Below, in pieces: positions 58,864 to 64,000 of a DNA stretch of 64,000 nucleotides. Both the position numbers and the translations under genes were made by a program. The notes below the pieces were generated by a model. It was not told where the DNA came from, searched no databases, and was given only the letters and a program-made list of their open reading frames with translations. The stretch is taken from positions 40,193 through 104,192 of the forward strand of contig JAAWAV010000007.1 in NCBI GenBank assembly GCA_022792335.1, read 5' to 3'. Within the stretch, counting starts at the first letter, position 1; each line of letters opens with the position of its first letter. Origin of the DNA: Lachnospiraceae bacterium (GTDB lineage: Bacteria > Bacillota > Clostridia > Lachnospirales > Lachnospiraceae).

Positions 58864-59232
58864 TCAGGACACGCCCCTATCTTTCTGTCGGGCAGGGGAA
58901 GAGTCGGAGGATTCTTTTTTTCTGTTCTGACGGATAAAGATCTGGCCCTGTTCCAGATAAAATTCCTGTTGCTCTCTGGTCAGAGAGCGGAAGGTATGGA
59001 TCAGCAGTTCTTCCTCATGGGAAATTCTGGATTTCTGAGAATGATTTAACAGAAAATCTGTGGTTACATGAAAATAATCGGCAATTCGTATCAGGGTCCC
59101 ATAATCCGGTTCACGACTTCCCTGAATATAATTACCGAGGGCAGAGGGAGACAGATCCAGGGCCTCTGCGAGCTGTTTTTGGGTCATATCATGCAGAAAC
59201 AACAATTCTTTTAAAATTTCACCTAGCTTCAT
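58864..59232 (-). CDS. XRE-family helix-turn-helix repressor
   Basis: A 122-residue protein. The HTH is near the N-terminus (MTQKQLAEALDLSPSALGNYIQGSREPDYGTLIRIADYFHVTTDFLL), followed by a charged C-terminal half. ATG 59232 is preceded by AAGGGGATTGAG; the track's earlier start adds a Cys-rich tail. It is divergent from the AP2 protein gene. The operator-like palindrome AACACAAAATGTGTT in that promoter is its likely target, which would make it a local repressor. Confidence 0.9.
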   Translation of the reverse strand: MKLGEILKELLFLHDMTQKQLAEALDLSPSALGNYIQGSREPDYGTLIRIADYFHVTTDFLLNHSQKSRISHEEELLIHTFRSLTREQQEFYLEQGQIFIRQNRKKESSDSSPARQKDRGVS

Positions 59233-59265
59233 GTCGCTCAATCCCCTTTTTACAATGATTCCCAG

Positions 59266-59291
59266 TACCGTCAATGGACAAAAACACCTGC
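59266..59291 (+). repeat. Dispersed 26-bp motif, copy C
   Basis: TACCGTCAATGGACAAAAACACCTGC, 22 of 26 positions identical to the copy at 61538 and similar to the arms at 17006 and 37489. It lies just upstream of the XRE gene. Confidence 0.6.
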
Positions 59292-59366
59292 AATCCAAGC
59301 TACATAACTTGTCCTTCTAATTTTAGCTGGGCATTTCATAGAATTAACGAAAAAACACAATTTGAG

Positions 59367-59395
59367 TTGACTAAACACAAAATGTGTTGTACGAT
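59367..59395 (+). promoter_or_regulatory. Promoter of the AP2/BTAD genes with operator in its spacer
   Basis: TTGACT (59367-59372), 17-bp spacer, TACGAT (59390-59395). The spacer contains the perfect inverted repeat AACACA-AAA-TGTGTT (59374-59388), so a bound repressor would block RNA polymerase. Another half-site (AACACAA) lies at 59354. Confidence 0.65.
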
Positions 59396-59458
59396 AAACA
59401 AAACTGGCGCACATAGAAATGCGGACACTGTGCATGTAAAAAGACGGGAGTCTTTGTA

Positions 59459-60301
59459 GTGATAGGAATTGGAAGTAAAATCGGCCTTCTGACAGTGGCG
59501 GAGGCTACGGAACATCGAAAGGCCGGATATATCGTCTGGCGCTGCCGCTGCCAATGTGGCGGCGAGATCCTTTTAGATACCCGCTGCTTACAGAGAGGAA
59601 CTGTGACAGATTGCGGTTGCAAAAGTGTTGTAGGGCCCGGGCAAAGGGATATTTCCGGAATGCGTTTTGGGAAACTTAAAGCGCTCAGACCTACGAAAGA
59701 GCGTGGCTTAGGAGGCAGTACCATATGGATCTGCAAATGTGACTGTGGCAGGGAAGTAAAAGCAGAGCTCAGTCAGTTGAGATCAGGGGGCAGGAAGAGC
59801 TGCGGCTGTCTCAGTCATCCACCCGGAAAGAATTTTATCGGGAAGCGTTTTGGGAAGCTCACGGTCATAGGATACGCCGGAAAGCGTGCAGGGATGCATC
59901 GCTGGAGATGTGTGTGCGACTGCGGCAAGGAAACTGTGGTGGGGCAGACGCTTCTTCAGAATGGGAAAACGAAGAGCTGCGGCTGTCTGCAGGCGACAGT
60001 ATACAAAGAGAATCTGGGACTTAAGGACGGAACCTCCGTCAAGGCTCTGCAGGCGGCAAAAAACGGACGTCTGATTAAAAGCAATACCAGCGGCCATAAT
60101 GGAGTTTATTTTGACAAAAGGCGGGGGCTTTGGGTCGCTCAGATTACCTTTAAAGGGAGAACCAGATATCTGGGGGCTTTTCAAGAATTGACAGATGCCG
60201 TAGAAGCACGGCAAAAAGGAGAAGAACTTTATGATGAGTTCCTGAGACAGCTTGACAGGGAGGAGAGCAAAAATCCTATTTCCGGGGTGGAGGGGAAATG
60301 A
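59459..60301 (+). CDS. Zn-ribbon repeat and AP2-domain DNA-binding protein
   Basis: A 280-residue protein. It has three copies of a Cys-rich unit with the pattern W-x-C-x-C-x-C-G ... L-x-x-G-x-x-x-x-C-G-C (about 26-55, 88-121 and 145-175); each could bind zinc. The C-terminus (about 207-265) is an AP2-like domain: SGHNGVYFDKRRGLWVAQI...RYLGAF. This layout is seen in phage and mobile-element proteins, but here no HNH nuclease is attached, so it looks like a DNA-binding factor. It starts at GTG 59459 behind GGGAG and overlaps the BTAD gene (ATGA). Confidence 0.8.
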   Translation: MIGIGSKIGLLTVAEATEHRKAGYIVWRCRCQCGGEILLDTRCLQRGTVTDCGCKSVVGPGQRDISGMRFGKLKALRPTKERGLGGSTIWICKCDCGREVKAELSQLRSGGRKSCGCLSHPPGKNFIGKRFGKLTVIGYAGKRAGMHRWRCVCDCGKETVVGQTLLQNGKTKSCGCLQATVYKENLGLKDGTSVKALQAAKNGRLIKSNTSGHNGVYFDKRRGLWVAQITFKGRTRYLGAFQELTDAVEARQKGEELYDEFLRQLDREESKNPISGVEGK

Positions 60302-61482
60302 GTGAAAAACAAAGCCTGTATTTTGAACTGATGGGCTCGTTTTCTTATGGATATATGGAAGGCGGGAATATAAGCAAGAGAGGAACTGTGCCTAAGGCCG
60401 GGAGGATCCCCCGGTCTTTTTTACAGTATTTCCTTGTACACCACGGGAGGAGTATTTCTTCAGAGGAGCTTCTGGAAGAATTTTGGCCGGACCATGACGG
60501 CGTCTCCACCGATACTTTGCGGCGCATGTTATTTAAAATCAGAAAACTTTTAAGGACCATGTTCCCGGAACAGGAAAATCTGCTGCTCACGCTTCCGGGA
60601 TGCTACGTCTGGAATCCGGATGTTCAGGTGGAGCTGGATACCGGGCAGTTTGAAATAGCCTGTCTGGAGGCAGGGAAATGCTCTGGAGAAGCGCAGGAGC
60701 GTTTGCTCTTTTCGGCTGTTTCCCTGTACAAAGGCGATTTCCTCCCAGATAATGACAGCGACTGGACTATGGGGCTCAGACAGTATTACCGGGCGCTTTA
60801 TCTGGACGCATGTCGGACGCTTCTCGCGTTACTTGAGAAAAAAGAAAAATGGACGGAGATCCTGAGGATCAGCGAACAGGCATACAGGACTGATTTTGCC
60901 GTAGAGGATTTTACAGTTCGCGCTATGCAGGCGCTGATTGCAATGGGGCAACCGGAGCAGGCCATTGAAAAATATGAAGCCTTTCAGACGAAAATGCTGG
61001 AAGAGTTGGGACTGCCTCCCACAGGCCGGGTAGAACAGATGTATATACTGGCGTCAGGACTTCGCAGACGGAACACAGGAGTCCCGGATATTTTTAAATT
61101 GTTATGTGAGGAGGGTGGAGAAGAAAAGGCATTTTTCTGTACCTTTGAGATGTTTCAAAGTGTCGTGGCCCTGGAACGACGGCATTTGGCCCGTACAGAA
61201 GAGAAATCAGCTTTGACCATCGTCGGGCTGGAAGGAGGGGACGATTCCTCCACCGATATGCGGAGGCTGGAACGGATTCTTTCAGAGGGACTCAGGGCAG
61301 GAGATCCTGTTGCCAGATTGGGGACTGATTCCTATATCTTTATGCTGGCAGGCGCCGATATGGAGGGAGCCAGGCTGGTGACAAGCAGGCTTGACCGGGC
61401 ATTTCACAAGACATACCGGCATTCAAAAGCTAGGCTTACCTATCATATCGCCCCGCTCGGGGCAGAACAGAAAGAAAAATAG
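60298..61482 (+). CDS. BTAD/SARP-like transcriptional regulator with degenerate GGDEF-like C-terminus
   Basis: A 394-residue protein. It has an OmpR-type winged helix (about 40-110; SISSEELLEEFWPDH, LRRMLFKIRKLL), then a bacterial transcriptional activator domain of TPR-like helices (about 115-245). The C-terminal domain (about 265-390) has RLGTDSYIFMLAGAD where GGDEF proteins have RLGGDEFxxLL, so it is probably a non-catalytic GGDEF relative. Translation is coupled to the AP2 gene. It may control the following small gene and the large surface protein. Confidence 0.85.
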   Translation: MSEKQSLYFELMGSFSYGYMEGGNISKRGTVPKAGRIPRSFLQYFLVHHGRSISSEELLEEFWPDHDGVSTDTLRRMLFKIRKLLRTMFPEQENLLLTLPGCYVWNPDVQVELDTGQFEIACLEAGKCSGEAQERLLFSAVSLYKGDFLPDNDSDWTMGLRQYYRALYLDACRTLLALLEKKEKWTEILRISEQAYRTDFAVEDFTVRAMQALIAMGQPEQAIEKYEAFQTKMLEELGLPPTGRVEQMYILASGLRRRNTGVPDIFKLLCEEGGEEKAFFCTFEMFQSVVALERRHLARTEEKSALTIVGLEGGDDSSTDMRRLERILSEGLRAGDPVARLGTDSYIFMLAGADMEGARLVTSRLDRAFHKTYRHSKARLTYHIAPLGAEQKEK

Positions 61483-61537
61483 AGATCCGTTTCAGGCTAA
61501 AAAGGAACGGATCGTTCACGGTAGTTCATTATAATAG

Positions 61538-61563
61538 TACCATCAGTTGACAAGAACACCTGC
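61538..61563 (+). repeat. Dispersed 26-bp motif, copy D
   Basis: TACCATCAGTTGACAAGAACACCTGC, direct repeat of the 59266 copy 2.27 kb away. The two bracket the AP2 and BTAD genes. Confidence 0.6.
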
Positions 61564-61593
61564 TCTTAAATGAATATAGAAGGAGGAGGCGCT

Positions 61594-61968
61594 GTGCTTT
61601 ATGAGAGAATGATTCCCTGCGATAGCAGAGAAGCAGTAGTCACAGTTATATCTTATACAAACGGCATTATGACAGGGAACTTGGGGCATCCGAGGCTCTA
61701 TAAAAGAGAAGAGTTCCGGAGCCTGTCGCAGATGATCCTTCTTCTGAATGGGGTATTGGATTTGGAGAGCTGTCCAAATCCCCCGTTGCCTTTACGCTAT
61801 ATGGAACATGACGTTAGAAAGAGCATGGGAGTGTTCCGCATCCAAGTTCTTTTTCGGGAACATAGTACCTGGCAGGGGAGGTTGATTTGGCAAGAGGAAA
61901 ACAAGGAATTTGTTTTTCGTAGCGTCATGGAACTGATACAGATGCTCGACGAGATTCTGGCAATGTAA
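61594..61968 (+). CDS. Unknown small protein between the BTAD regulator and the surface protein
   Basis: A 124-residue, mixed alpha/beta, cytosolic protein. It has an N-terminal VVTVISYTNGIMTGNLGHPRLYKREEFRSLSQMILLLNGVLDLESCPNPPLPL and a C-terminal STWQGRLIWQEENKEFVFRSVMELIQMLDEIL. I recognise no characterised family, although the DLESCPNPPLPL and TWQGRLIW blocks look like conserved cores. The GTG at 61594, 7 nt after AAGGAGG, is chosen over ATG 61570, whose codon overlaps the purine-rich site region. It precedes the surface protein by 86 bp. Confidence 0.7.
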   Translation: MLYERMIPCDSREAVVTVISYTNGIMTGNLGHPRLYKREEFRSLSQMILLLNGVLDLESCPNPPLPLRYMEHDVRKSMGVFRIQVLFREHSTWQGRLIWQEENKEFVFRSVMELIQMLDEILAM

Positions 61969-62054
61969 CAGGAGCAAAGCGGAACGCCTGAAAACGATAT
62001 TTTGACTGTAAATGGAACCAGAGGATTTTAGTTTTTGAAAGGAGGATGTCAGAG

Positions 62055-64000
62055 ATGACGACAAAAGGGAAAAAGCGATTTTTGGCAAAGTTTTTGTCGG
62101 CTCTGCTGATCATAGGGCTGCTGTTAAACACAGCGGGCACAGCAGCCCTTGCAGAGGCGGATGAGTCGGCAGAGACAGTCAGGACGACAGAAATTGCAGA
62201 ACCCGAGGCAAAAGAGCCAAAACAAGAAACCGCAGAGTTGCCGGAAGGAGCCGGGACGCAAGAGAGTGCGGAACCGTCTGAAGGGACAGAAGAAATTATG
62301 AAGCTGTCCTCGGAAACCGGAACAAAAGTAGGTTTGGAGCCGGAAGAAGAAACCGAGACGCAAGAGGTTATAAAGCCGACGGAAGCTATGACAGAAAGCG
62401 TCACGGAGCCAGCAGAGGCTATGACAGAAAGCGCTATGGAGCCAGCAGAGGCTACGACAGAAAGCGCTGCGGAGCCAACGGAGGCTACGACAGGCGCTGT
62501 GGAGCCAGAAGAGGCTGTGACAGAAAGCGCTATGGAGCCGAGGGAAGATCGCGGGACAGAATCGGTTGTAGAACCGATAGAAAACCCTGGAATAGAAGTG
62601 ATTCCAGAAGAGAATCCGGCGGAAACGCTGGCTGTGGCCTCTGAAACAGAGCTAATGGAAGAAACGCCGGAGGCAGTCCGGGCATTTTTGGAAGCGGCAA
62701 AAGCGCTGCCTTCTCCCGCTCAAATCACTCCGCAAAATGCAGAAGCGATCGGCGGACAGGTAAACGCCGCCCTTGATCTGTGGGACGCTCTCGATGAGAC
62801 GCTTGGCGAACGTGACGACGTGACAGAAGCTCTGGAAACTGTCTATGCAGTTTATGAGGCGGTGCTTGGGGCAGAAGAAAGTGTTGCGGAAGAAGAACCT
62901 GCACTCTATGCAACGAATGGAAACAAAATTCCTGTCGGCGTCGGGACCACAGACCAGAATGTCACAAAGACTGCTTTTATCACTTATGACGAGTGGAAAA
63001 AAGGCGGGGTTGCTGCATTGGGTGTAAGCGGGGATAATGCCGACGAAAACAGATATGGAACAGTCGTAGTGGAGCCAGATGGAAACACGGAGACTGTTGA
63101 TTGCGGCAATATGACGTTTTATACCTATTACGGGATTGCCGTATCTACGAATTGGAAAGAGAACGGAGGATTACCTTGGCTCATGCAGTGCCCGAGCTGG
63201 CTGGATTGCTGGTTTAGCGCAGACGGCGGCGTTTTGTCGATACATTTCAAAGCGAAGCCGGGCGCTAAGGCGGGCCAGTCTGGAACAGTAAGGGTAAATT
63301 ATGGCGCCAGTTGGGTCGTTGTGACAAATAATGGCTTTGAGGGAGAAGACAATGGCAAGGCAATTGGCGACATTTATTATAACGTGACGGTCGGCGGCGA
63401 AGGTTCGTCAGTTCCAGAAAAACCGGATGCGCCTGACAAAAATAATATAACACTTAAGTATGTGTTTGTCCAATGTCAGGATTCGACATGGGATAAGGCA
63501 AACCACAGTGCGCCTGCCAGGTTATTTTACGATGGCGAGACAACGATGGAACCTGGAGAAGTCATTGAAAACACATCCGACGATTTTGATAAAAATACTT
63601 ATCCTTATCAGTGTACAGTGAAGCTCAAGGGGGACTTCTATGTAAATCTCTGGAATCGCAGTCTTGCGGGCCGCCTGGGAACCCATTATCTTCATTCCGA
63701 GCCAAAGGACATTACTTTTTACTATTCTGCTGCAGAGGGAAAATGGAAATGCCCTACCGCCAGTTTAACTCCGTTTGAGAGTTCGGACACAGGAAAGGCG
63801 TACGGATGGCTGGTCAAAATTACGAAAAAGAAACCGGTTGAGCCTGATCCAGTCTATTACTCCGTTTGTTACACCGACGGTGTAAAGGGCGAAATCGTTT
63901 TTTCGGACCAGGTAAAAATGGGGCTGGAGGTAAATGCGGAAACCCCGAAGTTTGTCATGCAGGCAGATACCGTCAAAGAGAATGGAGACGGGACTACTAC
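62055..64000 (+). CDS. Large secreted/surface protein with Glu/Pro/Thr repeats, 3' truncated by the window
   Basis: The frame is open from ATG 62055 (GAAAGGAGGATG upstream) to the window end, 648 codons, and is missing from the ORF track. It has a signal peptide (KKRFLAKFLSALLIIGLLLNTAGTAALAEA). A long acidic, Pro/Thr-rich segment (about 36-205) includes four or five copies of an 11-residue EPAEATTESAM-like unit. A helical stretch (about 220-280) and beta-rich extracellular domains with several Cys follow. It resembles wall-anchored adhesins of gut Firmicutes. Any sorting signal would lie beyond the window. Function unknown. Confidence 0.85.
   Translation, partial: MTTKGKKRFLAKFLSALLIIGLLLNTAGTAALAEADESAETVRTTEIAEPEAKEPKQETAELPEGAGTQESAEPSEGTEEIMKLSSETGTKVGLEPEEETETQEVIKPTEAMTESVTEPAEAMTESAMEPAEATTESAAEPTEATTGAVEPEEAVTESAMEPREDRGTESVVEPIENPGIEVIPEENPAETLAVASETELMEETPEAVRAFLEAAKALPSPAQITPQNAEAIGGQVNAALDLWDALDETLGERDDVTEALETVYAVYEAVLGAEESVAEEEPALYATNGNKIPVGVGTTDQNVTKTAFITYDEWKKGGVAALGVSGDNADENRYGTVVVEPDGNTETVDCGNMTFYTYYGIAVSTNWKENGGLPWLMQCPSWLDCWFSADGGVLSIHFKAKPGAKAGQSGTVRVNYGASWVVVTNNGFEGEDNGKAIGDIYYNVTVGGEGSSVPEKPDAPDKNNITLKYVFVQCQDSTWDKANHSAPARLFYDGETTMEPGEVIENTSDDFDKNTYPYQCTVKLKGDFYVNLWNRSLAGRLGTHYLHSEPKDITFYYSAAEGKWKCPTASLTPFESSDTGKAYGWLVKITKKKPVEPDPVYYSVCYTDGVKGEIVFSDQVKMGLEVNAETPKFVMQADTVKENGDGTT
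62385..62545 (+). repeat. Tandem 33-bp coding repeats in the surface protein
   Basis: Imperfect units of GAGCCAGCAGAGGCTATGAC-AGAAAGCGCTATG repeat four to five times and encode EPAEAMTESAM-type peptides. A slight length change (GGCGCTGTGGAGCC) shows unit loss. Confidence 0.75.

Follow-up and report, generated by a model that had tools for sequence, protein, structure and literature searches.

A BTAD regulator with a degenerate GGDEF tail and a small two-repeat protein as the probable regulatory head of a surface-adhesin operon in Lachnospiraceae

Degenerate GGDEF domains are able to serve structural or other (GTP, ATP) roles, and PelD-type receptors of cyclic di-GMP (c-di-GMP), which are membrane exopolysaccharide subunits, have lost the catalytic motif and kept RxxD (PMC7288161). 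RxxD is present in just 57% of diguanylate cyclases (PMC4215984), and in PleD the I-site residues contributed by one chain are R359, D362 and R390 (PMC7288161). SARP/AfsR-type activators, in turn, carry an N-terminal OmpR-type winged helix followed by a BTAD domain. Here we describe a locus in which these two elements appear to be joined in one protein. It lies in a 64,000-nt stretch of Lachnospiraceae bacterium DNA (GCA_022792335.1, contig JAAWAV010000007.1, positions 40,193 to 104,192; hereafter the window), which comes from an incomplete Lachnospiraceae-type genome and ends at the end of its contig (G000:C29). From position 58864 the gene order is an XRE-type repressor gene on the minus strand and then, divergent from it on the plus strand, the genes for an AP2/Zn-ribbon protein, a BTAD regulator, a small protein and a secreted surface protein. 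The reading we favour, with a probability of about 0.6, is that this locus is the control head of a surface-adhesin operon, in which the BTAD regulator and the small protein would form the core and the front end would be exchangeable.

The BTAD gene (60298..61482, + strand) encodes a winged helix-turn-helix (residues 41-101), a BTAD domain (133-248) and a degenerate GGDEF tail (262-387). Pfam detected Trans_reg_C (1e-7) and BTAD (4.7e-13) in the window protein, the former also in 9/14 and the latter in 14/14 homologues, and the two domains stand in the order seen in SARP/AfsR-type activators. The Pfam GGDEF match was weak on the window protein alone (0.012) and was obtained for 8/14 homologues. 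A profile built from 51 tails matched 22 PDB GGDEF chains (best 9e-9), and the top 50 PDB fold matches of the AlphaFold2 model of the tail (predicted local distance difference test, pLDDT, 89.6) were all GGDEF proteins or GGDEF-containing proteins. The catalytic GG(D/E)EF motif was absent in 57/57 BTAD homologues, in keeping with the dead GGDEF-like domain proposed in a preliminary description of this DNA. The R and D of an I-site-like R333-A-G-D336 (61294..61305, +) were kept in all 57 of these homologues, and a third I-site-type arginine, R364 (61387..61389, +), which lies 31 residues past R333, was kept in 51/51 tails; this is the spacing of R359, D362 and R390 in PleD. Since catalysis has been lost yet the I-site residues are kept at PleD spacing, the tail most likely reads c-di-GMP, and the protein is predicted to be a c-di-GMP-gated activator. 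In the genome to which the window belongs there are genes for two or more intact GGDEF proteins. It could instead be argued that the tail is a dimerisation or structural module that senses nothing, with the BTAD protein constitutive and control exerted wholly at the XRE (or inverting) promoter, as the structural and nucleotide-related roles of other degenerate GGDEF domains would allow. We consider this unlikely, because all three I-site residues that a single chain supplies are without variation and keep the PleD spacing, and the catalytic motif is lost everywhere, despite a sequence identity that drops to about 20% among the homologous tails.

The small partner protein is encoded downstream of the BTAD gene (61594..61968, +). 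Its open reading frame (ORF) begins at 61570, but a GTG at 61594, positioned behind AAGGAGG, agrees better with the homologues and gives a protein of 124 amino acids (aa). Searches of Pfam, NCBIfam and PHROGs returned no family match, Foldseek with the AlphaFold2 model (pLDDT 77.5) found no PDB match with an E value below 0.01, and a profile of the protein compared with the PDB gave short, chance-like matches only. The two halves of the protein are homologous to each other (hhalign probability 88%, E 3e-6), each half is modelled as three strands and a helix (bbba), and the invariant residues gather in the motif W/LQG...FRS.xEL. By sequence and model, then, it is an undescribed family of two bbba halves. 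Copies of its gene occur both before and after the BTAD gene in six loci (L026, L029, L036, L037, L038 and L042), and the small protein probably acts together with BTAD. In the intergenic region between the two genes we also noticed a palindrome, GAACGGATCGTTC, followed by TATAAT (61505-61534); the TATAAT is kept in L078 and L080, not in L079. It is possible that the two elements form a BTAD-dependent promoter.

In order to determine how often these genes recur together, we used a sample with one genome per species. The small-protein profile matched 27 of 120 genomes of the family, which represent 26/119 genera. The BTAD regulator was searched for in 36 genomes, 26 of them with the small protein, and the three BTAD genes of the window's own genome, each with an adjoining small-protein gene, were added. 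A small-protein gene was present within 10 kb of 29/47 full-length BTAD matches. The close BTAD subfamily was then scanned against 84,980 species genomes, which yielded 31 real relatives, 30 of them with a usable BTAD match; the small protein was found within about 3 kb of BTAD in 24/30, and in 10/30 BTAD is immediately preceded by a full AP2 gene, with AP2 remnants in two more. The order AP2-BTAD-small-surface is also present in L027, L060, L074, L087, L091, L094, L096 and L099, and the AP2-BTAD pair in L100 and L103. On these counts the constant core consists of BTAD, the small protein and the surface protein, and AP2 and XRE are optional. The preliminary description had taken the four regulatory genes as one compact cassette, to be doubted if they proved separate in most genomes; the pairing of BTAD with the small protein survives this comparison and that of BTAD with AP2 does so in part, but the four do not form one unit, as XRE occurs in four loci only and AP2 in about a third. 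That the genes are coincidental neighbours, separate transcription units without a shared function, might be suggested by the many BTAD loci, indeed most, that have neither XRE nor AP2. Recurrence in unrelated flanking contexts, the overlap of the AP2 and BTAD genes and the conserved operators described below already disfavour such a view, and we regard it as highly improbable.

The XRE/Cro-type repressor gene (58864..59232, minus strand) has an open frame up to 59298. Its homologues begin at the ATG at 59232, giving a protein of 122 aa rather than the product of the full frame (59298-58864). The protein contains HTH_3 (Pfam, 6.6e-13). Between this gene and AP2 is a promoter-like sequence for the AP2-BTAD-small operon, TTGACT-17-TACGAT (59367..59395, +), together with two predicted operators: O1 (AACACAATTTGAGTT, 59354..59368, +), upstream of the -35 element and touching its edge, and O2 (AACACAAAATGTGTT, 59374..59388, +), a perfect palindrome within the -35/-10 spacer. 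The pair, AACAC-N5-G.GTT and AACACRAAATGTGTT, is exactly 20 bp apart over TTGAC-17/18-TA...T in four loci, namely the window, L027/L078 (one and the same locus), L079 and L080. XRE homologues (76-86% identical) are present in exactly these loci, and neither they nor the operator pair were found outside them across the BTAD loci compared. In the whole 64 kb window operator-like sites were observed twice, against 0.09 expected by chance. Palindromic operators placed over a promoter, conserved and tied to the repressor gene, are what an XRE-repressor operon would have.

The AP2 gene (59459..60301, +) encodes 280 aa, with three Zn ribbons placed by alignment at about 59537-59620, 59726-59809 and 59903-59986 and a C-terminal AP2 domain at about 60086-60244. 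The Pfam AP2 match of the window protein (5e-4) is under the curated cut-off; the domain was found in 5/5 homologues, best 2.3e-5. Phage HNH families in PHROGs match this protein in their Zn-ribbon/AP2 parts only, PHROG 374 at 6e-50. The Pfam scan revealed no HNH nuclease domain, the protein consisting of Zn ribbons and AP2 only, and we therefore rejected a nuclease function and its assignment to the HNH-AP2 homing endonucleases; an AP2 factor without a nuclease is indeed what had first been proposed. Its translational coupling to BTAD, likewise proposed, rests on the BTAD ATG, which overlaps the AP2 stop by 4 bp (ATGA). Internal deletions have left AP2 remnants in L079 (6860-7001) and L080 (6814-7008), which keep XRE, its operators and the BTAD start region; for this reason AP2 was rejected as an essential part of the circuit. 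On another contig (L058:7950-17807, G005:C38) we observed the same pairing of recombinase gene, here frameshifted, and AP2, with imperfect inverted repeats, ahead of an exopolysaccharide operon of the Pel type (PelF-like, PelG). Since this recombinase and AP2 pair precedes an operon of that kind, AP2 accompanies the switch module and not BTAD alone.

These features might also be explained if XRE and AP2 were the remains of an element, phage or homing, that inserted upstream of the adhesin operon, with BTAD and the small protein alone functional. The likeness of AP2 to the regions with which phage HNH endonucleases bind DNA, that of XRE to phage RstR repressors, and the reduced AP2 genes of L079 and L080 would all fit. 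Compared with the nearest relative, L078, the ratio of nonsynonymous to synonymous substitution (dN/dS) stood at 0.079 (AP2), 0.127 (BTAD), 0.12 (small protein) and 0.11 (XRE), values which indicate that all four genes are maintained by purifying selection; AP2 and XRE are thus constrained like BTAD. In addition, ten further loci, from a range of species, have AP2 immediately ahead of BTAD, the operators are kept in a fixed register, and neither a nuclease nor mobile-element genes were found beside AP2 and XRE. An origin as mere left-overs is therefore rather improbable.

In 13 other distinct loci the slot upstream of BTAD, the small protein and the surface protein is occupied by a tyrosine recombinase gene lying within inverted repeats of 18-35 bp, 1.1-1.6 kb apart (L026, L029/L083, L036, L037, L038, L042, L074/L081, L090, L092, L095, L100, L103 and L106). 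The repeats were found in 13/13 recombinase loci, with scores of 18-31 against a shuffled maximum of 14. Every repeat arm is in itself a core site of the recombinase type, such as TGTCGCAGAG-GTTCATA-CTCTGCGACA. Two of the loci, L095 and L103, have the recombinase segment turned the other way round. Variants of this arrangement are seen in L089 and L104, where another recombinase lies just outside a segment of about 350 bp that bears the inverted repeats; in L082, L087 and L088, where segments of 170-220 bp have the same core and no recombinase; and in L060 and L091, where an apparent serine recombinase, read from the sequence, is upstream. The 13 loci thus have the make-up of an invertible-promoter phase switch, as do several of those with short or external variants; in the window itself neither recombinase core sites nor inverted repeats were found. 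Three contigs, G009:C50 (L028), L094 and L099, begin at the core site or within about 40 bp of it, which fits the presence of both orientations in the sample, but the assembly of any repeat could do the same. Further recombinase and inverted-repeat elements were observed in the window's own and related genomes (L111, at G000:C13:66000-71042, L113, L116, L119 and L120), where they adjoin an unknown ORF of about 455 aa (TIYKTVHQYSK...). A hairpin upstream of the recombinase gene, which would pair with its ribosome-binding region, is present in L036 (5949-6042) and L038 (13630-13723).

The XRE loci group as a single clade in the BTAD phylogeny (support 97). This clade adjoins L074, a locus with recombinase and AP2, and is nested in a set of mostly recombinase-type loci. 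The topology is most simply read as the replacement of an invertible switch by XRE in the lineage of the window, followed by decay of AP2 in the L079/L080 branch.

The surface-protein gene (62046..64000, +) is cut by the contig end after 651 aa, and a signal peptide is visible in this N-terminal part. ORFs and Pfam domains thus agree with the three DNA-binding-type proteins and the small protein first described as packed before a surface protein. A 56% identical homologue of the surface protein sits behind the same cassette in L027, and in close relatives large secreted proteins commonly follow, frequently bearing LPXTG-like ends or accompanied by a signal peptidase. At the C9 locus of the window's own genome a giant protein with SpaA, SdrD_B and ricin-lectin domains is encoded downstream of a signal peptidase. 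No plus-strand terminator-like site was found between BTAD and the surface gene, so read-through from one into the other is possible. From position and recurrence we infer that the BTAD cassette controls the surface gene. A second context was seen in L025, L031, L032, L033, L034 and L035, where BTAD and the small protein end an operon for a SipW-type signal peptidase, a TasA-like protein and an LPXTG protein.

As we infer from the sequence, the SARP-like activator, its tail most likely a c-di-GMP reader, and the small two-repeat protein would act as the constant core. In most close relatives where a front end can be identified, inversion of the recombinase segment would toggle the operon. In the clade of the window, the XRE protein would occupy O1 and O2 over the AP2-BTAD-small promoter and block transcription; upon its relief AP2, BTAD and the small protein would be made, and BTAD, tuned by c-di-GMP, would activate the adhesin gene. 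AP2 would be an auxiliary DNA-binding factor inherited from a recombinase-type ancestor. Several observations weigh against this scheme. For 18/47 BTAD genes the available contigs show no small-protein gene inside 10 kb, and many copies of the small protein occur by themselves. Only remnants of AP2 are left in 2/4 XRE loci, the RxxD residues may be retained in GGDEF domains for reasons of fold, and transcription of the adhesin gene may start from a promoter of its own that does not depend on BTAD.

The timing of large adhesin and pilus display is hardly known in gut Lachnospiraceae, and the locus yields testable predictions in this regard, namely a SARP-type activator that reads c-di-GMP and a new partner family in 26/119 sampled genera. 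Searches of the literature for BTAD with Lachnospiraceae surface proteins, for Lachnospiraceae invertible promoters and for BTAD with GGDEF gave nothing on this system, nor did a paper linking BTAD to c-di-GMP regulation come up, most subscription journals being outside the search. We tentatively put forward, as a proposal with somewhat less than even odds, that c-di-GMP-gated BTAD transcription factors, a family not described before, and their equally undescribed two-repeat partner control large surface adhesins of gut Lachnospiraceae, the core remaining constant while the switch in front is swapped at one fixed slot between a self-encoded invertible recombinase segment, a short invertible promoter, a serine recombinase and an XRE repressor. 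Adhesin operons under a DNA-inverting switch or a repressor at the same position would offer a natural comparison between stochastic and signal-driven ways of governing one output.

The locus shares parts with several known systems. Like SARP/AfsR-type regulators (e.g. NCBIfam BagI/FevR), the BTAD protein has an N-terminal winged helix that is followed by BTAD; unlike them, it ends in a degenerate GGDEF, not in an NTPase or nothing, and adjoins surface proteins rather than antibiotic clusters. Its tail resembles that of PelD-type receptors in its GGDEF fold, lost catalytic motif and kept RxxD (PMC7288161), but here c-di-GMP binding is a prediction and the protein is a cytoplasmic DNA-binding regulator. 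The XRE protein is similar to phage-type XRE/Cro repressors (RstR, PHROG 8) in its HTH_3, its divergent gene and its predicted palindromic operators over a promoter, and differs in being chromosomal and ahead of a surface-protein operon. AP2 shares Zn-ribbon and AP2 modules with phage and homing HNH endonucleases (PHROG 374, 99), whereas it lacks their nuclease and is coupled to a chromosomal regulator. Finally, the sister loci have the recombinase, the reversed copies and the inverted repeats around a would-be promoter segment that are known from tyrosine-recombinase invertible switches such as the C. difficile flagellar switch/RecV (PMC7446863); in contrast to the latter, 13 of them carry the recombinase within the segment, and the window locus is without such repeats.

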